Origin: Arenicola marina
Taxonomy: Eukaryota; Annelida; Polychaeta; Arenicolidae
Length of the DNA stretch: 64,000 nt
Direction of reading: 5' to 3'
Assembly (NCBI GenBank): GCA_964019135.1
Contig: OZ025248.1
Location: forward strand, 51,639,670-51,703,669
Below are positions 4,521 through 57,723 of the stretch, in pieces (position 1 is the stretch's first letter; every line of letters starts with the position of its first letter). The position numbers were made by a program, and so were the translations under genes. The notes beneath the pieces are model-generated. The model was given only the letters and a program-made list of their open reading frames with translations, made no database searches and was not told the origin of the DNA.

Positions 4521-4632
<112 letters not shown>

Positions 4633-4633
4633 G

Positions 4634-4670
4634 CCTAAATCTAACCCCTAACCTTAACTATAACCCTAAC
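4634..4670. repeat. Short telomere-like CCCTAA-type run
   Basis: Immediately after the microsatellite the sequence contains 'ctaacccctaacc' and 'taaccctaac', which are degenerate copies of TAACCC (TTAGGG on the minus strand). At about 37 bp and imperfect, this could be an interstitial telomeric trace or chance AT/C-rich sequence. Confidence 0.4.
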
Positions 4671-4757
4671 ATTGCGGCCGTGGCGGACAGATTCCTGAAT
4701 AATTTTGAAAAAAGGTTCCAAAAAAAGCCATACAAGAAAACGACGATAAGATCTGAC

Positions 4758-7700
4758 AATGCCCCACTGAGTCCCCAGGCAGACGGGGGCGGGGGGGGGG
4801 TGTAACTACCCACTGAGTCCCCAGACAGACGGGGCGACAGCACCGGACTACCCACTGATTCCCCAGACAGACGGGGGACAGCACCGGACTACCCACTGAT
4901 TCCCCAGACAGACGGGGGACAGCGCCGGACTACCCATTGAGTCCCCAGACAGACGGGGCAACAGCACCGGACTACCCACTGATTCCCCAGACAGACGGGG
5001 GACAGCGCCGGACTACCCACTGATTCCCCAGGCAGACGGGGCGATAGCACCGGACTACCCACTGATTCCCCAGACAGACGGGGGCACAGCGCCGGACTAC
5101 CCACTGAGTCCCCAGACAGACGGGGGGACAGCGCCGGACTACCCACTGAGTCCCCAAACAGACGGGGGGACAGCGCCGGACTACCCACTGAGTCCCCAGA
5201 CAGACGGGGGGACAGCACCGGACTACCCACTGATTCCCCAGACAGACGGGGGGACAGCACCGGACTACCCACTGATTCCCCAGACAGACGGGGGACAGCG
5301 CCGGACTACCCATTGAGTCCCCAGACAGACGGGGCAACAGCACCGGACTACCCACTGATTCCCCAGACAGACGGGGGACAGCGCCGGACTACCCACTGAT
5401 TCCCCAGGCAGACGGGGCGATTGCACCGGACTACCCACTGATTCCCCAGACAGACGGGGGCACAGCGCCGGACTACCCACTGAGTACCCAGACAGACGGG
5501 GGGACAGCGCCGGACTACCCACTGAGTCCCCAGACAGACGGGGGGACAGCGCCGGACTACCCACTGAGTCCCCAAACAGACGGGGGGACAGCGCCGGACT
5601 ACCCACTGAGTCCCCAGACAGACGGGGGCACAGCGCCGGACTACCCACTGAGTCCCCAGACAGACGGGGGGACAGCGCCGGACTACCCACTGAGTCCCCA
5701 GACAGACGGGTGACAGCGCCGGACTACCCACTGAGTCCCCAGACAGACGGGTGACAGCGCCGGACTACCCACTGAGTCCCCAGACAGACGGGGGCACAGC
5801 GCCGGACTACCCGCTGAGTACCCAGACAGACGGGGGGACAGCGCCGGACTACCCACTGAGTCCCCAGACAGACGGGGGAACAGCGCCGTGACTACCCACT
5901 GAGTCCCCAGACAGACGGGGGACAGCGCCGGACTACCCACTGAGTCCCCAAACAGACGGGGGACAGCGCCGGACTTCCCACTGAGTCCCCAGACAGACGG
6001 GGGGGCAGCGCCGGACTACCCACTGAGTCCCCAGACAGACGGGGGACAGCGCCGGACTACCCACTGAGTCCCCAAACAGACGGGGGACAGCGCCGGACTA
6101 CCCACTGAGTCCCCAAACAGACGGGGGACAGCGCCGGACTTCCCACTGAGTCCCCAGACAGCCGGGGGGACAGCGCCGGACTACCCACTGAGTCCCCAGA
6201 CAGACGGGGGGACAGCGCCGGACTACCCACTGAGTACCCAGACAGACGGGGGGGCAGCGCCGGACTACCCATTGAGTCCCCAGACCGACGGGGGGCCAGC
6301 GCCGGACTACCCACTGAGTCCTCTCACAGACGGTGGGACAGCGCCGTGACTACCCACTGAGTCCCCAGACAGACGGGGGGACAGCGCCGGACTACCCACT
6401 GGGTCCCCAGCCAGACGGGGGCACAGCGCCGGACTACCCACTGGGTCCCCAGACAGACGGGGGGACAGCGCCGGACTACCCACTGAGTCCTCTCACAGAC
6501 GGTGGGACAGCGCCGTGACTACCCACTGAGTCCCCAGACAGACGGGGGGCCAGCGCCGGACTACCCATTGAGTCCCCAGGCAGACGGGGGGACAGCGCCG
6601 GACTACCCACTGCATCCCCAGACAGACGGGGGACAGCACCGGACTATCCACTGAGTCCCCAGGCAGACGGGGGGACAGCGCCGGACTACCCACTGAGTCC
6701 CCGGACAGACGGGGGACAGCGCCGGACTTCCCACTGAGTCCCCGGACAGACGGGGGACAGCGCCGGACTTCCCACTGAGTCCCCAGACAGCCGGGGGGGC
6801 AGCGCCGGACTACCCACTGAGTCCTCTCACAGACGGTGGGACAGCGCCGGACTACCCACTGAGTCCCCAGACAGACGGGGGCACAGCGCCGGACTACCCA
6901 CTGAGTCCCCAGACAGACGGGGGGAGAGCGCCGGACTACCCACTGAGTCCCCAGACAGACGGGGGGCCAGCGCCGGACTACCCACTGAGTCCCCAGACAG
7001 ACGGGGGAACAGCGCCGTGACTACCCACTGAGTCCCCAGACAGACGGGGGGGCAGCGCCGGACTACCCACTGAGTCCTCTCACAGACGGGGGAACAGCGC
7101 CGGACTACCCACTGAGTCCCCAGACAGCCGGGGGGGCAGCGCCGGACTACCCACTGAGTCCCCAGACAGACGGGGGACAGCGCCGTGACTACCCACTGAG
7201 TCCCCGGACAGACGGGGGACAGCGCCGGACTACCCACTGAGTCCCCAGGCAGACGGGGGGACAGCGCCGTGACTATCCACTGAGTCCCCAGGCAGACGGG
7301 GGGACAGCGCCGGACTACCCACTGAGTCCCCAGACAGCCGGGGGGGCAGCGCCGGACTACCCACTGAGTCCCCAGACAGACGGGGGGGCAGCGCCGGACT
7401 ACCCACTGAGTTCCCAGACAGACGGGGGGACAGCGCCGGACTACCCACTGGGTCCCCAGCCAGACGGGGGCACAGCGCCGGACTACCCACTGGGTCCCCA
7501 GACAGACGGGGGGACAGCGCCGGACTACCCACTGAGTCCCCAGACAGACGGGGGGACAGCGCCGGACTACCAACTGAGTCCCCAGGCAGACCGGGGGACA
7601 GCGCCGGACTACCCACTGGGTCCCCAGCCAGACGGGGGCACAGCGCCGGACTACCCACTGGGTCCCCAGACAGACGGGGGGACAGCGCCGGACTACCCAC

Positions 7701-7990
7701 TGAGTCCCCAGACCGACGGGGGCACAGCGCCGGACTACCAACTGAGTCCCCAGACAGACGGGGGGACACCGCCGGACTACCAACTGAGTCCCCAGACAGA
7801 CGGGGGGACAGCGCCGGACTACCCACTGAGTACCCAGACAGACGGGGGGACAGCGCCGGGCTACCCACTGAGTACCCAGACAGACGGGGGGACAGCGCCG
7901 GACTACCCACTGAGTCCCCAGACAGACGGAGGGACAGCACCGGACTACCCACTGAGTCCCCAGACAGACGGGGGGACAGCGCCGGACTAC
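4758..7990. repeat. 42-bp minisatellite, about 77 copies, length-variable
   Basis: The unit is approximately GACTACCCACTGAGTCCCCA then GACAGACGGGGGGACAGCGC then CG. Lengths vary by one or two bases, mainly in the G-run (3 to about 9 G), with occasional variants such as 'gtgactaccc' and 'cctctcacagacggtggg'. Because 42 is a multiple of three, the minus strand shows frames of up to 318 residues built from a 14-residue GSPALSPRLSGDSV-like repeat. They are repeatedly broken by the G-run changes, which argues against coding use. The variants are intermixed, consistent with slippage plus unequal exchange. Confidence 0.95.
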
Positions 7991-8411: not shown

Positions 8412-9663
8412 GGCCTGAGCATCTACTAGATAAGGCACGAATATGCCTGAGCAGCTATTAGACAAGGTACGAATATGCCTGGGCATCTATTAGATAAGGT
8501 ACGAATATGCCTGGGCATCTATTAGATAAGGTACGAATATGCCTGGGCATCTATTAGATAAGCTACGAATATGCCTCGGCATCTATTAGATAAGGTACGA
8601 ATATGCCTTGGCATCTATTAGATAAGGTACGAATATGCCTTGGCATCTATTAGATAAGCTACGAATATGCCTGGGCATCTATTAGATAAGGTACGAATAT
8701 GCCTGGGCATCTATTAGATAAGGTACGAATATGCCTGGGCATCTATTAGATAAGGTACGAATACGCCTGGGCATCTATTAGATAAGGTACGAATATGCCT
8801 GGGCATCTATTAGATAAGCTACGAATATGCCTGGGCATCTATTAGATAAGGTACGAATATGCCTGGGCATCTATTAGATAAGGTACGAATATGCCTGGGC
8901 ATCTATTAGATAAGGTACGAATATGCCTGGGCATCTATTAGATAAGGTACGAATATGCCTAGGCATCTATTAGATAAGGTACGAATATGCCTGGGCATCT
9001 ATTAGATAAGGTACGAATATGCCTGGGCATCTATTAGATAAGGTACGAATATGCCTGGGCATCTATTAGATAAGGTACGAATATGCCTGGGCATCTATTA
9101 GATAAGCTACGAATATGCCTCGGCATCTATTAGATAAGGTACGAATATGTCTGAGCATCTATTAGATAAGGTACGAATATGCCTGGGCATCTATTAGATA
9201 AGGTACGAATATGCCTGAGCATCTATTAGATAAGGTACGAATATGCCTGGGCATCTATTAGATAAGGTACGAATATGCCTGGGCATCTATTAGATAAGGT
9301 ACGAATATGCCTGGGCATCTATTAGATAAGGTACGAATATGCCTGGGCATCTATTAGATAAGGTACGAATATGCCTGGGCATCTATTAGATAAGGTACGA
9401 ATATGCCTGAGCATCTATTAGATAAGGTACGAATATGCCTGGGCATCTATTAGATAAGGTACGAATATGCCTGGGCATCTATTAGATAAGGTACGAATAT
9501 GCCTGGGAATCTATTAGATAAGGTACGAATATGCCTGGGCATCTATTAGATAAGGTACGAATATGCCTGGGCATCTATTAGATAAGGTACGAATATGCCT
9601 GGGCATCTATTAGATAAGGTACGAATATGCCTGGGCATCTATTAGATAAGGTACGAATATGCC
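8412..9663. repeat. 32-bp minisatellite, 39 copies, constant length
   Basis: The unit is TATTAGATAAGGTACGAATA then TGCCTGGGCATC. The GCCT start recurs from 8,413 to 9,629, exactly 38 x 32 bp, so net length change is zero. Differences are single substitutions (GGGCATC, GAGCATC or CGGCATC; GGTACG or GCTACG). Nearly every unit holds AGATAAG, which fits the GATA-factor consensus WGATAR; function is unproven. The core GGTACGAATA is shared with the degenerate array that follows. Confidence 0.95.
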
Positions 9664-38129: not shown

Positions 38130-39222
38130 TTGCACAATGTGCACGAATTACAGTGACACATAAAAACATCCCAGGTGGACAGCATTTTGAATTCCTCAGC
38201 ATTTCATTAACTTTGTTTTTTCATTGTTGAGCATATTCCATAACTTGCTGCTATGATACTTTACTGAATTGTGTCCATAGGCTGTTGTCTTAACGCGTGG
38301 CATACCTAGAGCCCGGTCCATTTTTCAACACGTGATTGCATGTCATGAAGGTAACTGGGCCCAATCTCGATGATACTCTTGTAAACTCCTAAAACTATAC
38401 CGCGCAACCGCTCAACATATAGCAAAGGTCTACCCGCTTTCTTCCCCAATTCTGTGTATGCTGATCTAAAATCATTATAAACAAATCTCAATGCACGCTC
38501 CTGTATCTTTTAAATCTTACGCATGTTTTTCATATCACAGAAATGCCACGCAACGGGACAATAATTAAAATGTGAAACGATGAATGAATGAAATAATGTA
38601 AGTTTGCTATCAACATCCATGGATTTAGACACCCTAGCTAACACATTGAGACTTTTGCCAGCCTTTTTGCCCAAACTTGACATATGGCTGCCGAAATTTA
38701 ATCTGGAATCCAGTTGAATACCTAGTAATGTTACTTCCTGTTCCGCTGCCAGTTCTGTACCAGAAACGAAAAACATCTAGCCTCACCTATTTCGTTTCGC
38801 TTCTCAAATACGATTGCTTGGTAGTTACTTGAATTGCCCTTCGTGTAATTATCGGTGAACCACGTTGTTATTTCCGATAATGTCTTCTCTAGTATTACTT
38901 TTACCATGTTAAACTTCTTACGTTGTGCCGCCACAGTGTTATCATCAGCATAGTTATACTTATCGGTTTCCGGTAAGGTAGATACTAGCAGGTCTTTCGC
39001 AAATATATTATACAGATGTGGGCCTAAATCAGAACCCTGTGGTGCTCCTTTCTTGAGAGAAAGCCATTCGCTCCGATTATGTCCTAGTTTCACCCTCTGT
39101 TCGCGGTTCGTAAGATAACTTGCAACAAGCGAACAAGATTGTTTACTGATGCCATAAGCGTTCATCTCGGTAATTAATAATCTTTGTGGAAGACAATCGA
39201 ATGCTTTGGAGAGGTCCATGAG
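38130..39222 (-). pseudogene. LINE reverse transcriptase, catalytic and C-terminal part
   Basis: From its minus-strand start the segment reads DLSKAFDCLP (RT motif A), then KKGAPQGSDLGP (motif B region), then YADDNTV (motif C, the catalytic DD pair intact), then LLGIQLDSRLNF and a thumb-like FNYCPVAWHFC. A frameshift occurs near 38,760 and an in-frame TAA at 38,510-38,512, just before KIQERALRFVYNDF. Beyond about 38,320 the frame shifts again, and related sequence including VKTTAYGHNSVKYHSSKLW continues in another frame to near 38,130. An intact element would copy its RNA at a nicked target; this copy cannot. Confidence 0.85.
39218..39222. repeat. Target-site duplication ATGAG, left copy
   Basis: ATGAG abuts the left end (TGTCA) of the LTR-like insertion and is matched by ATGAG at 41,032-41,036 after its right end. 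Removing the insertion and one copy makes the reverse transcriptase frame continuous into motif A, which confirms the junction independently. Confidence 0.85.
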
Positions 39223-39440
39223 TGTCAAGGGGCCAACGTCAGTAGTGCTTTGCCATCTCCCGTTCCTGGGCTTTGGGGATGATTAACTCACCCAGCGAGC
39301 TGCTCTCGCACCTTGGAGCGCGAGGGGCCCCGACAATTAGTTGGCAGTGACACTGGTTTACCTGGCCCTCCCTTGCTCGGGGGGTTTAAATGGAACAAGA
39401 CGCGACAGGGAAAAAGAGATGGTGACCGGAGACGAAGCCT

Positions 39441-40868
39441 GCGGCGTCCTGCTCCGTGCTGTATGCTGTGTGCTGTATGCTGTTAGCTCGTCCTGCTCCG
39501 TGCTGTGTGCTGTCAGCTCGTCCTGCTCCGTGCTGTCAGCTCGTCCTGCTCCGTGCTGTGTGCTGTTTGCTGTCAGCTCGTCTTGCTCCGTGCTGTGTGT
39601 TGTGTGCTGTCAGCGCGTCCTGCTCCGTGCTGTGTGCTGTGTGCTGTAAACTCGTCCTGCTCCGTGCTGTGTGCTGTGTGCTGTCAGCGCGTCCTGCTCC
39701 TTGCTGTGTGCTCCGTGCTGTCAGCTCGTCCTGCTCCGTGCTGTGTGCTGTGTGCTGTCAGCGCGTCCTGCTCCGTGCTGTGTGCTGTCAGCGCGTCCTG
39801 CTCCGTGCTGTGTGCTGTGTGCTGTTAGCGCGTCCTGCTCCGTGCTGTGTGCTGTGTGCTGTCAACTCGTCCTGCTCCGCGCTGTGTGCTGTGTGCTGTC
39901 AACTCATCTTGCTCCGTGCTCTGTGCTCCGTGCTGTCAGCTCGTCCTGCTCCGTGCTGTGTGCTGTGTGCTGTCAGCTCGTCCTGCTCCGTGCTGTGTGC
40001 TGTGTGCTGTCAGCGCGTCCTGCTCCGTGCTGTGTGCTGTGTGCTGTCAGCGCGTCCTGCTCCGTGCTGTGTGCTGTGTGCTGTCAGCTCGTCCTGCTCC
40101 GTGCTGTGTGCTGTGTGCTGTCAGCTCGTCCTGTTCCGTGCTGCGTGCTGTCAGCGTGTCCTGCTCCGTGCTGTGTGCTGTGTGCTGTTAGCGCGTCCTG
40201 CTCCGTGCTGTGTGCTGTGTGCTGTCAACTCGTCCTGCTCCGCGCTGTGTGCTGTGTGCTGTCAACTCATCTTGCTCCGTGCTGTCAGCTCGTCCTGCTC
40301 CGTGCTGTGTGCTGTGTGCTGTCAGCGCGTCCTGCTCCGTGCTGTGTGCTGTGTGCTGTCAGCTCGTCCTGCTCCGTGCTGTGTGCTGTGTGCTGTCAGC
40401 TCGTCCTGTTCCGTGCTGCGTGCTGTCAGCGTGTCCTGCTCCGTGCTGTGTGCTGTGTGCTGTCAGCGCGTCCTGCTCCGTGCTGTGTGCTGTGTGCTGT
40501 CAACTCGTCCTGCTCCGTGCTGTGTGCTGTCAGCGAGTCCTGCTCTGTGCTGTGTGCTGTGTGCTGTCAGCGAGTCCTGCTCCGTGCTGTGTGCTGTGTG
40601 CTGTCAGCTCGTCCTGCTCCGTGCTGTGTGCTGTGTGCTGTCAACTCGTCCTGCACCGTGCGGTGTGCGGTGTGCTGTCAGCTCGTCCTGCTTCGTGTTG
40701 CATGCGGTGTGCTGTCAGCTCGTCCTGCTTCGTGTTGCATGCGGTGTGCTGTGTGCTGTGTGCGTTTTTCTGCTGCGTGCTGTATGCTGCGTGCTGGCTA
40801 CTGTCCCGCGTCCTTCTGCGTGCTGTTTGCTGTAAAGTGGCCCGCGTCCTTCTGCGTGCTGGCCCGCA
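39441..40868. repeat. 37-bp minisatellite inside the LTR-like insertion, about 38 copies
   Basis: The unit is GCTCCGTGCTGTGTGCTGTG then TGCTGTCAGCGCGTCCT, itself built from CTGTGTG subrepeats. Units lacking one 'tgtgctg' block are common, so length varies. A block containing 'gctgttagcg' recurs at 39,821 and 40,184 (363 bp apart) and one containing 'tcgtcctgtt' at 40,126 and 40,401 (275 bp apart), showing multi-unit duplications. Long cysteine-rich plus-strand frames (up to 459 residues) are by-products of the repeat. Confidence 0.95.
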
Positions 40869-40948
40869 TCCCTGCGTGAACTCTCATCGTGTTGACTCAA
40901 GGAACAGACCGGATCTAAGCTGGCCCTTGGAATATGTAAATATCTTGG

Positions 40949-40956
40949 TATATAAA
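40949..40956 (+). promoter_or_regulatory. TATA box of the LTR-like element
   Basis: TATATAAA lies about 75 bp before the right end of the insertion, downstream of the minisatellite. The spacing would put a start site near 40,980, leaving about 50 bp of R-U5. This is inferred from position and sequence only. Confidence 0.4.
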
Positions 40957-41031
40957 TTGTCTGCAGAGTTCATAATCTGATGCGTTAGTTGTCATTCTAC
41001 CTACTCTGATCCCGACCTTGTCTGTGTGACA

Positions 41032-41036
41032 ATGAG
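41032..41036. repeat. Target-site duplication ATGAG, right copy
   Basis: The partner of 39,218-39,222, directly after the terminal TGACA of the insertion. Confidence 0.85.
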
Positions 41037-42110
41037 TATAACTCCCATAACTTGATTATTACCTAATGCTTTTTTGGAATCTTCAACGAAACGCGTCAGT
41101 AAACTTTGACAGCTGTGTCCCTTTCTAAACCCAGAGAGTCTGGGTGATAACCTGGGTTCCATATAGGACATAAGCTGATCACACAATATCGGTTCATAAA
41201 GCTTGGAAATGCAGGGGAGAACACTTACCGGCCTGTAGTTTTCTTTATCTAAGTTGTCCTTTTTCTTGAAAATATGTGTAACTTCAGCGTATTCAGATCT
41301 TTTGGAAACGCCTTACCTTTAATCGTCATATTTAAAACATACCTTAATGGCTCACGCAGGATGGCAGCTCCCAGCTTGATAAGCTTCGGAGGTATCTTGT
41401 CGTAGCCACTAGCCTTCGAAACATCAATGCACTTAATTGCTGTGTATATTTCGTTACTGCCTTAAAGTTAAAAGCTTCTACCGTGTCTTGGTTGCCTTCC
41501 TTTATAGCCATAACGGACTTATGGTCTTCGTGATAAAGTAGGGTTTCGTCTATTAGCTGGTCATATGGTGTGTCGTCTTGTTGCCCTATATCTTTGGCAA
41601 CGTCTATTAGGTATTTATTAAATATATCACTTACCTTTGATGGATCTGATATAATTTCATCTCCCTCTTTCAGAATAACGTTTCTGCTGCTTGCATTTTT
41701 TCTTGATATTAATGGTTTTACGACTTTCCAGAATTCCTTACCGTAAGTCCACATTTCCCCTTGATGTACTTTTGCACACTTACTTTTCGTACACGTCCTA
41801 TCAGACTCCTCTGCTTTCTGTATTTTTCCCAGTTCTCTTCGCTACTCACTTTCTTATACTTACGCCTCAACAGATTTTTTATCTTTATGGCTTTGCGACG
41901 ATGGCTAGTCATACAAGGCACACAGTTATTCTTACCAACCCATTGCTTGGTTGGTGCATGTCTATCAACGACCTCTTTGATCAATGTGCTACAGAACCAA
42001 TATGAATCGTCAACATCGTCAAGCACTTGACTTACATGGAAGCGTACCGATGCCAGACCATCTTTGTATTTCACCTCATCAAAATGTTTAAAACTTAGAT
42101 AATAAACACG
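41037..42110 (-). pseudogene. LINE linker and reverse transcriptase N-terminal half
   Basis: Reading from the 5' side on the minus strand: VYYLSFKHFDEVKYKDGL, then a basic linker rich in K and R (41,718-42,074), then WTYGKEFWKVVKPLISRKN and ILKEGDEIISDPSKVSDIFN (41,344-41,754), typical of the region preceding RT fingers. The frame breaks after about 41,470. RT sequence resumes in other frames and finally as GFRKGHSCQSLLTRFVEDSK (41,001-41,186), followed at once by the LTR junction. Several frameshifts make this non-functional. Confidence 0.8.
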
Positions 42111-51174: not shown

Positions 51175-54100
51175 ACTAGCATAGTGCCATCAGACATAGT
51201 GTCATCAGACATAGTGACACCATCCATGGTGACATCAGACATAGTGACACCAGACATAGTGTCATCAGACATAGTGACACCAGACATGGTGACATCAGAC
51301 ATAGTGACACCAGACATAGTGACACTAGACATAGTGACAGTGCCCTCAGACATAATGCCATCAGACATAGTGACATCAGACATAGCGCCATCAGACATAG
51401 TGACAGTGCCATCAGACATAGTGCCCATCAGACATAGCGCCATCAGACATAGCGCCATCAGACATAGTGCCATCAGACATAGTGCCATCAGACATAGTGA
51501 TATCAGACATAGTGACAGTGCCATCAGACATAGTGCCATCAGACATAGCGCCATCAGACATAGCGCCATCAGACATAGTGACACCAGACATAGTGACAGT
51601 GCCATCAGACATAGTGCCATCAGACATAGTGCCATCAGACATAGTGCCATCAGACATAGCGCATCAGACAATGTGACAGTGCCATCAGACATAGTGCCAT
51701 CAGACATAGCGCCATCAGACATAGTGCCATCAGACATAATGCCATCAAACATAATGCCATCAAACATAGTGACAGTACCATCAGACATAGTGCCATCAGA
51801 CATAGTGCCACCAGACATAGTGACAGTACCATCAGACATAGTGCCATCAGACATAGTGCCCATCAGACCATGTGACAGTGCCATCAGACATAGTGCCATC
51901 AGACATAGCGCCATCAGACAATGTGACAGTGCCATCAGACATAGTGCCATCAGACATAGCGCCATCAGACATAGTGCCATCAGACATAATGCCATCAAAC
52001 ATAATGCCATCAAACATAGTGACAGTACCATCAGACATAGTGCCATCAGACATAGTGCCATCAGACATAGTGACAGTGCCATCAGACATAGTGACAGTGC
52101 CATCAGACATAGTGACACCAGACATAGTGACAGTGCCATCAGACATAGTGCCATCAGACATAGTGACAGTGCCATCAGACATAGTGACAGTGCCATCAGA
52201 CATAGTGACACCAGACATAGTGACACTATACATAGTGACACCAGACATAGCGCCATCAGACATAGTGCCATCAGACATAGCGCCATCAGACAATGTGACA
52301 GTGCCATCAGACATAGTGCCATCAGACATAGTGCCATCAGACATAGTGCCATCAGACATAGTAACACCAGACATAGTGACACTATACATAGTGACACCAG
52401 ACATAGTGCCATCAGACATAGTGCCATCAGACATAGTGACACCAGACATAGTGACACTATACATAGTGACACTATACATAGTGACACTATACATAGTGCC
52501 ATCAGACATACTGCCATCATAGTGCCATCCGACATAGTGACACCAGACATAGTGACACTATACATAGTGACACTATACATAGTGCCAGCAGACATAGTGC
52601 CATCAGACATAGTGCCATCAGACATACTGCCATCATAGTGCCATCAGACATAGTGACACCAGACATAGTGACACTATACATAGTGACACCAGACATAGTG
52701 ACACCAGACATAGTGCCATCAGACATAGTGCCATCAGACATAGTGACACCAGACATAGTGACACTATACATAGTGACACCAGACATAGTGCCAGCAGACA
52801 TAGTGCCATCAGACATAGTGACACCAGACATAGTGACACTATACATAGTGACACCAGACATAGTGCCATCAGACACAGTGCCATCAGACATAGTGCCATC
52901 AGACATAGTGCCATCAGACATAGTGCCATCAGACATAGTGACACCAGACATAGTGCCATCAGGCATAGTGACACCAGACATAGTACCATCAGTCATAGTG
53001 ACACCAGACATAGTGCCATCAGACATAGTGACACCAGACAGTGCCATCAGACATAGTGCCATCAGACATAGTGCCATCAGACATAGTGCCATCAGACATA
53101 GTGCCATCAGACATAGTGACACCAGACAGTGCCATCAGACATAGTGACACCAGACATAGTGCCATCAGACATAGTGACACCAGACATAGTGACACCAGAC
53201 ATAGTGCCATCAGACATAGTGACACCAGACAGTGCCATCAGACATAGTGCCATCAGACATAGTGCCATCAGACATAGTGACACCAGACAGTGCCATCAGA
53301 CATAGTGACACCAGACATAGTGCCATCAGACATAGTGACACCAGACACAGTGCCATCAGACATAGTGACACCAGACATAGTGACACCAGACAGTGCCATC
53401 AGACATAGTGACACCAGACATAGTGCCATCAGACATAGTGACACCAGACACAGTGCCATCAGACATAGTGCCATCAGACATAGTGCCATCAGACATAGTG
53501 ACACCAGACAGTGCCATCAGACATAGTGACACCAGACATAGTGCCATCAGACATAGTGACACCAGACATAGTGCCATCAGACATAGTGACACCAGACACA
53601 GTGCCATCAGACATAGTGCCATCAGACATAGTGCCATCAGACATAGTGACACCAGACATAGTGCCATCAGACATAGTGCCATCAGACATAGTGCCATCAG
53701 ACATAGTGATATCATAGTGCCATCAGACATAGTGCCATCAGACATAGTGCCATCAGACATAGTGACACCAGACATAGTGACACCAGACATAGTGCCATCA
53801 GACATAGTGCCATCAGACATAGTGCCATCAGACATAGTGCCATCAGACATAGTGATATCATAGTGCCATCAGACATAGTGCCATCAGACATATTGCCATC
53901 AGACATAGTGATATCATAGTGCCATCAGACATAGTGATATCATAGTGCCATCAGACACAGTGCCATCAGACATAGTGCCATCAGACACAGTGCCATCAGA
54001 CATAGTGCCATCAGACATAGTGCCATCAGACATAGTGCCATCAGACATAGTGACACCAGACATAGTGCCATCAGACATAGTGACACAAGACATGGTACCA

Positions 54101-55591
54101 TCAGTCATGGTGACACCAGACATAGTGCCATCAGACATAGTGACACCAGACAGTGCCATCAGACATAGTGCCATCAGACATAGTGCCATCAGACATAGTG
54201 ACACCAGACAGTGCCATCAGACATAGTGACACCAGACATAGTGCCATCAGACATAGTGACACCAGACATAGTGACACCAGACAGTGCCATCAGACATAGT
54301 GACACCAGACATAGTGCCATCAGACATAGTGACACCAGACACAGTGCCATCAGACATAGTGCCATCAGACATAGTGCCATCAGACATAGTGACACCAGAC
54401 ATAGTGCCATCAGACATAGTGACACCAGACATAGTGCCATCAGACATAGTGCCATCAGACATAGTGCCATCAGACATAGTGACACCAGACAGTGCCATCA
54501 GACATAGTGACACCAGACATAGTGCCATCAGACATAGTGACACCAGACATAGTGACACCAGACAGTGCCATCAGACATAGTGACACCAGACATAGTGCCA
54601 TCAGACATAGTGACACCAGACACAGTGCCATCAGACATAGTGCCATCAGACATAGTGCCATCAGACATAGTGACACCAGACATAGTGCCATCAGACATAG
54701 TGCCATCAGACATAGTGCCATCAGACATAGTGATATCATAGTGCCATCAGACATAGTGCCATCAGACATAGTGCCATCAGACATAGTGATATCATAGTGC
54801 CATCAGACATAGTGCCATCAGACATATTGCCATCAGACATAGTGATATCATAGTGCCATCAGACATAGTGATATCATAGTGCCATCAGACACAGTGCCAT
54901 CAGACATAGTGCCATCAGACATAGTGCCATCAGACATAGTGCCATCAGACATAGTGACACCAGACATATTGCCATCAGACACAGTGCCATCAGACATAGT
55001 GCCATCAGACATAGTGCCACCAGACATAGTGCCATCAGACATAGTGCCATCAGACATAGTGCCATCAGACATAGTGACACCAGACATAGTGCCATCAGAC
55101 ATAGTGCCATCAGACATAGTGCCATCAGACATAGTGACAGTGATATCAGACATAGTGACACCAGACATAGTGCCATCAGACATAGTGCCATCAGACAGAG
55201 TGACAGTGCCATCAGACATAGTGCCATCAGACATAGTGCCATCAGACATAGTGACACCAGACAGTGCCATCAGACATAGTGACACCAGACATAGTGCCAT
55301 CAGACATAGTGCCATCAGACATAGTGCCACCAGACATAGTGCCATCAGACATAGTGCCATCAGACATAGTGCCATCAGACATAGTGACACCAGACATAGT
55401 GCCACCAGACATAGTGCCATCAGACATAGTGCCATCAGACCTAGTGACACCAGACATAGTGCCATCAGACATAGTGCCATCAGACATAGTGACACCAGAC
55501 ATAGTGCCACCAGACATAGTGCCATCAGACATAGTGCCATCAGACATAGTGATATCATAGTGCCAGCAGACATAGTGACATCAGAAATAGT
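51175..55591. repeat. 15-bp minisatellite, about 290 copies, with length variants and large blocks
   Basis: The two main units are GCCATCAGACATAGT and GACACCAGACATAGT. Shortened joins ('gacagtgcc', 'gatatcatagtgcc', 'gacactatacatagt') are common. Rare markers show large duplications: TATTGCC at 53,891 and 54,825 (934 bp apart, with matching flanks) and TACCATCAGTCAT at 52,983 and 54,096 (1,113 bp apart). Because 15 is a multiple of three, both strands carry long frames (PSDIV on plus, MSDGT/MALCL on minus); frame jumps at the shortened joins argue against coding. Confidence 0.95.
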
Positions 55592-57723
55592 GTGAGGAAG
55601 CTCGTTCCTCGCATCCCCTCTGCCCCACGTAACCGACAACCTCACTGTTGACCTCAACGGTGCTGAGCTGAAGAATGGTTTTAGAGCGCTGTTTAGTTTG
55701 AATGTATTTTTTGTGCAGATTTTGAAAAATATAGACGTTCCGTTGTCTTACGATCACAATGAAAGATTTAAGCGACAGATTATTTCAAAATAACACGGTG
55801 TCAAAGTTTAAACCGCTTCACGCCTCTGATTTCGATCGAACTCGAAAACATAGTTCGAATATAGCATGAGGCTTTTAATGAATCAAAATCTAATCAATTC
55901 GTCCGGTACAGTACCAGCAGCCCAGTAAATGCCAAACAGTGGTGTATTTGATGCCAAACTGCGAATATATCTTTGATTAGATTCATTTTCAATTTTCGCG
56001 TATGAAGGATGATTTTGATGCTTGAATTTGAAGTGGGGGCTGAGGGACTATAGCGTAAGCGAAACGCCCTCTGCCGGGAGATCGATCGAAAATAGTGCCA
56101 TCATGCAAAATGCCATTAAGCATATACTTAAGAGCAAGCAGATACTGGCAACAATGATCATTATTGGCGTGACCTTCTGTGTACGATGTAACCAATGCCA
56201 TAAGTAGTTACGGTTTATTTTGCATATTATGTTTGCTTCGCCAAGCGATAATCCCATCCAGAGCACTGACTGATGTTGTTGTCTTTAGTCTGGTGCAGAC
56301 GGATTAGTGAGGGACAAATGCAGACAAATGTTATAGGGAACCGCCAACGTGCTTACCAACGATTGCTAATTTTGCTGATCTTGCGGTAAGATTAAATTGG
56401 AGTGAACAAGACTACTGCAGGCATTTGACCATTACCGAAGACAGCTATTGGCCTAGTGTTGGTGGTGCAATCCACTGTCTGGCAACAAACGATGGGCGAC
56501 TGATGGCTGTCTCGGGATCTGGTTCCCCACTTTAATTCCCTGGACGAATTACTCTTGGCCAAGCGGCCAAAACACCCTTATATGGATATGTACGGTCCTT
56601 GTCTCTGTCAACATTTGTGGCTGACTGCAACTCACATCCTAAAGTCTTTCCCTCTTTGCTCTGCCCGCTTCGCAAACCATTTCGATGAATAATTGAAGTC
56701 ACCACTCATTAAAAAGGCGAGTTGAAAAGTTGTTATTGCTTCCGAAAAGCGCATGTCAATTGCAGGACAGATTCGTGGCGCATTTTATTCATCAAACTGT
56801 TTATTCCGTGACTGTTTATTCCGGGCCCTTCGTCAAAATGATGGGTTTATGAAAGTTTATCGCCCGAGGGTCTAGTTCGCTGCCCCGAAATAAATCTCAT
56901 ACTACATTTCTAAATCGCTCAGCTGCAAGAAGCGGCCATGCATATATGTATGGGACTTTCATATGCGGGATCAAATTGTGAAGTATCGGCACGTTTCTAC
57001 AATGATGAGGTCCTATTTTCTTCCTGTATAAATTTTTTAGCAAAGCCATATGGGAGCTAAAGACCGCTTAGCTACTTGAGATCGTTTTATATGTGGAGGA
57101 TTAGCGGGCATGGTTTGGTGCCGTGTAGCTCGTGTGATATTAATAATGGGGAAAAAAACGATGATTCGTAGATACAGATTCATGGAACTGAAATTATGAG
57201 GGTCGGCATTCGAGATTTTGAGAAGCGTTTCAGTCCAGACATGACCGGCTTGCCTCTTTTTCCGGCCCATCCATGCTATTCAGACCGGAGTACGCTTAAC
57301 AACGGTTGGTCGACCCCCCCCCCCACCCCCACCGCCATCTCTCGTGACTCTCGTGATCCGAAGCTATGATGTATGCTTGCAAACGTTGTATCCCACACCA
57401 CAGATATCAAGCGGGAGCATTTTAAAGGCATATCGACTCTGGCAGTGATCGCGTAACCTGTATGTTTGCGTTATGATCAAGTTAAAATTTAGCTTTTTGT
57501 CCCCAGTGGCGAGAGCACCCCTGGGCGAGCACCGGATTGGGCGACCTGCATACGCAACTGATGGGTGCAGGTTGGGGTAATTTATTTCATGTAGACACAG
57601 ACACAGCTGATGGGTGCTGGCTGGTAGCCTGCATGAAGCGCGCGACGCGGGCGAATGCACCCATAGGTGTAAACATAAACACGGGAGAATGGTTGCAATG
57701 TTCGTTAGAACAAATGTTTTGTG
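55592..57723. other. Unique sequence, no gene seen
   Basis: AT-rich to mixed DNA with short frames of 60-98 residues on both strands and no recognisable domain. A C-run occurs near 57,316-57,325. Confidence 0.5.

Follow-up and report, generated by a model that had tools for sequence, protein, structure and literature searches.

The window analysed covered 64,000 nucleotides of the 867-Mb Arenicola marina genome (contig C1, 51,639,670-51,703,669), and it contained at 39,223-41,031 on the plus strand a 1,809-bp solo long terminal repeat (LTR) of an LTR retrotransposon: a single LTR was present, the interior was absent, a target-site duplication was found on both sides, and the end blocks recurred genome-wide and had paired-LTR relatives. 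The TGTCA/TGACA ends and the perfect ATGAG duplication (39,218-39,222 and 41,032-41,036) were found where the first-pass annotation of this DNA had placed them. The insert was antisense relative to the LINE reverse transcriptase that it interrupted on the minus strand: RVT_1 profile positions 2-67 were matched before the insertion (41,037-41,312; E 7.7e-8) and positions 73-180 after it (38,731-39,222; E 1.2e-13), and in the Pfam comparison both pieces reached the junction at a codon boundary once the insert and one ATGAG were removed. A query of 226 bases of joined LINE flanks, aligned over the junction, matched an empty site, at 90-96% identity, in all 40 LINE copies scored out of 414 candidates; an ordinary LINE copy had thus served as the target, and the junction was exact. 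The resumption of the reverse transcriptase frame and the order of LINE first, LTR second, both proposed beforehand, were borne out by these joined profile matches and by the empty sites of the LINE copies.

The LTR displayed a plus-strand organization of (i) a conserved left block at 39,223-39,440, representing the start of U3, with 40 scored matches including itself (85-100% identity; 66 candidates in the genome search), (ii) a tandem array at about 39,445-40,861, degenerate at its right end, and (iii) a conserved right block at 40,869-41,031, again with 40 scored matches including itself (88-100% identity; 74 candidates). The TATA box anticipated near the right end was present as TATATAAA (40,949-40,956), which could be read either as a downstream TATA box or as TATAAA, a variant poly(A) signal; another TATA-like box, TTTAAAT (39,385-39,391), lay before the array, had positional counterparts in sister families (see below), and was absent from the first-pass annotation. 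Depending on how these boxes are read, the right block would comprise the poly(A) region plus U5 or the core promoter plus R plus U5.

The array made up 1,417/1,809 bp (78%) of the LTR, as against the roughly 79% given previously, and long open frames were present over it but were repeat-driven. Its units consisted of a 10-mer resembling GTCCTGCTCC, a 7-mer resembling GTGCTGT that was repeated n times, and a 6-mer, with resulting lengths of about 10 + 7n + 6 (23, 30, 37, or 44 bp); the 37-bp unit described earlier accounted for 28/36 units, but unit length proved to be modular. In the repeat analysis, a run of variant units within 39,795-40,433 recurred in order, starting at 39,795 and again at 40,158, 363 bp apart. 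Eighteen of the 20 unit types of the window LTR, including all six recurring ones, were absent from 23 other LTRs of the family even as substrings, the six recurring types were likewise missing at five partial LTR loci, and the two shared types were 30-bp units found in 6/23 and 2/23 of the other LTRs. The window array was thus amplified in its own lineage, and its large expansion was private to this copy. A structured RNA encoded by the array was considered and rejected, the folding z scores of three stretches (-2.4, -3.0, and +0.5) being inconsistent.

The search with the end blocks recovered paired-LTR relatives, as the first-pass annotation had foreseen: L039, which carried gag and pol, and the shorter L049, a 2.4-kb LTR pair with a truncated 5′ LTR and an exact duplication. 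L039 had LTRs of 732 and 886 bp, the first being followed by the spacer AGGAAA and the primer site TGGGGGCTCGTCCGGGAT and the second being preceded by a G-rich tract; the complement of TGGGGGCTCGTCCGGGAT minus CCA was identical to the final 15 bases of a tRNA-Pro(TGG) gene of the host, located on C18. A dense cluster of tRNA-Pro 3′-end matches was located at 6.29-6.44 Mb of C18 (L073), with four tRNA-Pro genes in the 3.7 kb read. The 15-base tRNA-Pro 3′-end core also occurred in a different dispersed repeat at L059, L060, L061, L065, and L068, and in four of these a 23-bp array stood some 180-250 bp upstream; there was no TGG before the primer core in this repeat, and these five were rejected as LTRs of the family, as was L062, which was not recognisable as an LTR.

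The coding domains of L039, taken in pieces from open frames as they stand, included a SCAN-type gag (PF02023, E 4.6e-9), an integrase zinc finger (2.6e-20) and integrase core (2.3e-5, under Pfam's own cut-off), reverse transcriptase (8.1e-26), and RNase H (8.5e-32). The integrase pieces (3,371-4,653 of L039) were upstream of the reverse transcriptase and RNase H (6,934-7,938), with the 3′ LTR starting at 8,437; this order came from one full copy, L039, in which a LINE with its own reverse transcriptase (4,597-6,562, minus strand; RVT_1 5.6e-19) was inserted between the two parts. The family is Ty3/gypsy and, judged by the integrase-reverse transcriptase order and the SCAN-type gag, probably of the Gmr1 type, a comparison made with Gmr1 by description rather than by tree. 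A second reverse transcriptase copy ended 889 bp ahead of a 3′ LTR. Two reverse transcriptase copies with at least 98% identity were found among 40 scored (49 candidates), compared to at least 40 left and at least 40 right LTR ends, and therefore most family copies were solo or partial. Among the 10 loci with both outer ends, which leaves out the C4 and C19 clusters and the one-ended L040, L047, L048, and L052, an exact 5-bp duplication was found at seven (the window, L044, L045, L049, L050, L053, and L054) and a match at 4/5 bases at two (L039 and L051), while L046 had none; the C4 and C19 cluster copies read were likewise without duplication.

It is extremely improbable that the window insert arose instead from a DNA transposon or from insertion of an unrelated satellite. 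The short terminal inversion TGTCA/TGACA and the 5-bp duplication would, alone, fit some DNA transposons, but paired copies enclosed gag and pol, the primer site for tRNA-Pro, and a G-rich tract ahead of the 3′ LTR, and this possibility was contradicted by the paired-LTR element L039. The search with the array gave 270 matches, distributed over the 40 places scored among 82 candidates; among the matches listed and as far as checked, these fell at LTR loci, which argues against a satellite insertion, and they coincided by eye with LTR-end matches, so that a free satellite moved into the LTR was also rejected. Two unfamiliar places among the array matches, L074 and L075, contained LTR pieces.

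The array was present in 24/24 measured LTRs of the family, which were 570-6,755 bp in length; this set excluded L002 (truncated), L055-L058 and L074-L076 (one LTR end lacking or beyond the stretch), and the truncated 5′ LTR of L049, and one further LTR from L055 and L077 was 4,172 bp. Array size ranged from about one recognisable unit to more than 6 kb, as exemplified by (i) L045, with an array of about 6 kb composed mostly of a 22-bp unit, and (ii) L044, with a 37-bp unit plus a 125-bp period. A short array was thus ancestral to the LTR family. The sequence of insertion, interior loss, and array growth given in the first-pass annotation held insofar as the large expansion was private to the window copy, but the short array was already ancestral, and the expansion may have preceded or followed the loss of the interior.

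The two LTRs of one element are identical at birth as a consequence of the reverse-transcription mechanism. Those of L039 had 11/368 core mismatches (97% identity) and arrays differing by 154 bp (a 147-bp block plus one 7-bp unit), and this array difference therefore arose later. The C4 cluster contained twelve copies about 22-36 kb apart with eight LTR lengths (790-1,253 bp); the four copies read, duplicates of a single insertion, had homologous flanks, 0-3 core mismatches, and arrays of 601, 617, 825, and 885 bp. In two other near-identical pairs of duplicates, no array change was seen between L041_b and L042_b (both 787 bp, one core mismatch), and no real one between L051_a and L051_b (692 and 691 bp, one core mismatch). 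Array length can thus change after insertion while the remainder of the LTR hardly changes, although conversion or assembly error could account for part of the length differences among the duplicates. In the same C4 cluster, L004 and L008 had left flanks identical over 1,500 bases and right flanks differing at 18/729 positions, which suggests a recombination or conversion boundary within or near the LTR.

The reverse transcriptase search also gave copies at 74% identity (n = 9), which led to sister family 2, composed of L079, L080, and L081 together with L064 from the primer-core search. The family 2 LTR shared the TGTCACGGGG start, a similar tail, the spacer, and the primer site with the window family and harbored an array of 7-10 copies of a 34-bp unit in 4/4 LTRs; the L064 gag was 77% identical to that of L040. 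Family 3 (L063, L066, L067, and L082-L085) had a gag with 43-46% identity across three compared copies; it had the primer site in common with the window family and carried, in 7/7 LTRs, an array made of 4-10 units of 20 bp. Three families with a common tRNA-Pro primer site thus harbored arrays at one LTR position in all copies examined (24/24, 4/4, and 7/7), while similarity between their array units was no greater than that of shuffles; a tandem array may be a recurring feature of this LTR group. L063, L066, and L067 contained a second tandem repeat, with units around GTCATCGCCGCATCGAGA, in the untranslated leader just after the primer site. L085 carried the array, intron, and tail of family 3 behind a different front sequence, a pattern suggestive of exchange or loss of the LTR front.

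Directly after the array, 5/7 family 3 LTRs contained a GT-AG intron (GTAAGT...TTTGTAG) of 131-163 bp (donor TTAAGT in L082), which was precisely missing in L063 and L084. These two differed at 13 positions in the segment before the array, and neither was the nearest copy of the other; the simplest reading would be two separate reverse transcriptions of spliced RNA. In both, the TATATAAG of the intron was gone, while the upstream box and AATAAA were kept. Transcription of the 3′ LTR covers U3-R whichever placement is correct, and so the intron loss alone cannot place the array in U3 or R. Among the best 10 of 1,576 papers matched in a literature search, none carried the phrase "intron in the LTR" or "LTR intron".

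The first-pass annotation had put the array in U3, and this placement was not established, since a TATA-like box also lay upstream of the array and a canonical AATAAA poly(A) signal lay downstream of it in family 3; the downstream TATATAAA keeps a U3 location in play. The upstream box was located (i) at about LTR position 163 in the window family, as exact TTTAAAT in 14/24 LTRs, (ii) at position 247 in family 2, as TATATATA in 3/4 LTRs and altered to ATATATAT in L081, and (iii) at position 240-247 in family 3, as TATAAATA in 6/7 LTRs, with none in L085. CAGAT was found 33 bases past this box in 6/6 family 3 LTRs, and an initiator-like CAGAT followed it in 8/24 window-family LTRs, the window LTR not among them; in 7/7 family 3 LTRs, AATAAA lay 52-58 bases ahead of the primer core or the end of the LTR. 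The surroundings of the upstream box aligned weakly between families 2 and 3 (4/300 shuffles as good), and the pre-array segment of the window family was no more similar to its counterparts in families 2 and 3 than many shuffles (146/300 and 284/300 as good, respectively). With an upstream TATA-like box in three families and the family 3 AATAAA after the array, the array may well be transcribed, and on these sequence features its location in R appears somewhat likelier than one in U3. The downstream box would favor a different arrangement, in which a TATATAAA promoter would be preceded by the array as a putative U3 enhancer whose copy number would tune promoter strength, as envisaged in the first-pass annotation and as in ERV-9/LTR12. 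This arrangement is plausible but rather doubtful. In its favor, TATATAAA was found 83-93 bp before the LTR end in 14/24 window-family LTRs, with TATAAA kept in 23/24 (the exception being L008), and its segment aligned with the TATATATA segment of family 2 better than all 300 shuffles. TATAAA also serves as a variant poly(A) signal. LTR12 is described as having 5-17 repeats in U3, each about 41 bp long and with factor binding sites (PMC11853044), which speaks for an enhancer; against it, the array varied from about one unit to more than 6 kb without any apparent optimum, the units of the sister families were unrelated, and the family 3 TATATAAG downstream of the array was within the intron lost by two copies.

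There is about an even chance that the array has no function at all, the host expanding tandem repeats widely and the LTRs being swept along. Minisatellite covered 24,749/64,000 window bases (about 39%), with arrays of up to 4.4 kb (e.g., 51,180-55,592), and 8,457/52,962 non-LTR bases of 16 other loci; an array comparable to that of the LTR was found in 123/300 random 500-bp windows from the 64-kb window outside the LTR and in 41/300 from non-LTR parts of the other loci. Comparable arrays being this common in host DNA, passive growth is a serious rival, but it has to contend with three related families carrying arrays at one LTR position in every copy examined, with unrelated units. It competes with functional readings only and is compatible with the account of a solo LTR with a family-wide array, which claims no function. 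Another functional proposal, which we regard as unlikely, is that the LTR group keeps an array in R, its presence conserved and its sequence arbitrary; first strand transfer in multiple registers would then shift array length at each transposition, and the LTRs would be prone to recombination and to quick conversion into solo LTRs.

Comparison with known systems was applied to Gmr1, ERV-9/LTR12, and Retrosat2, in each case from the part of the source available. Gmr1 elements have integrase upstream of reverse transcriptase (PMC8220671), and the SCAN domain has been linked to Gmr1-like gag (PMC4592553); the window family shared this gene order and a SCAN-like gag but differed in its long variable LTR arrays, none being mentioned for Gmr1 in those parts. 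ERV-9/LTR12 of primates, with a variable number of about 40-bp LTR tandem repeats and several subtypes (PMC11853044), was the nearest precedent as an LTR of variable tandem-repeat number, and the earlier description of the array as unusual for an LTR thus applies in degree, a precedent being already known. ERV-9/LTR12 is retrovirus-like and has its 5-17 repeats in U3, whereas the window family had modular units, one LTR with an array of more than 6 kb, and TATA-like boxes flanking the array. The rice element Retrosat2 was similar in its very long LTR with tandem repeats, R being located at 245-2266 between U3 and U5 (PMC3485330), but it is a plant element whose R repeats consist of a 6-bp motif present seven times. 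In the titles and abstract openings covered by the literature search, with subscription papers mostly outside its scope, no description of the window LTR family or of variable Gmr1 LTR arrays was found.

Taken as a whole, it is probable that the insert is a Gmr1-type Ty3/gypsy solo LTR with a family-wide variable array between an upstream TATA-like box and a poly(A)/U5 tail. The element inserted antisense into the LINE reverse transcriptase, and its interior was lost, most simply via LTR-LTR recombination. The upstream TATA-like box would act as the promoter, and the array would thus be in R and at both RNA ends. It would be copied along with the element and then, as ordinary minisatellites do, grow or shrink in place within a minisatellite-rich host.

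The intron of the family 3 LTR, exactly lost in two copies, is good evidence for reverse transcription of spliced RNA. The family provides a natural series for gauging minisatellite growth on datable insertions, and it makes testable whether an LTR array is regulatory, a strand-transfer device, or passive.
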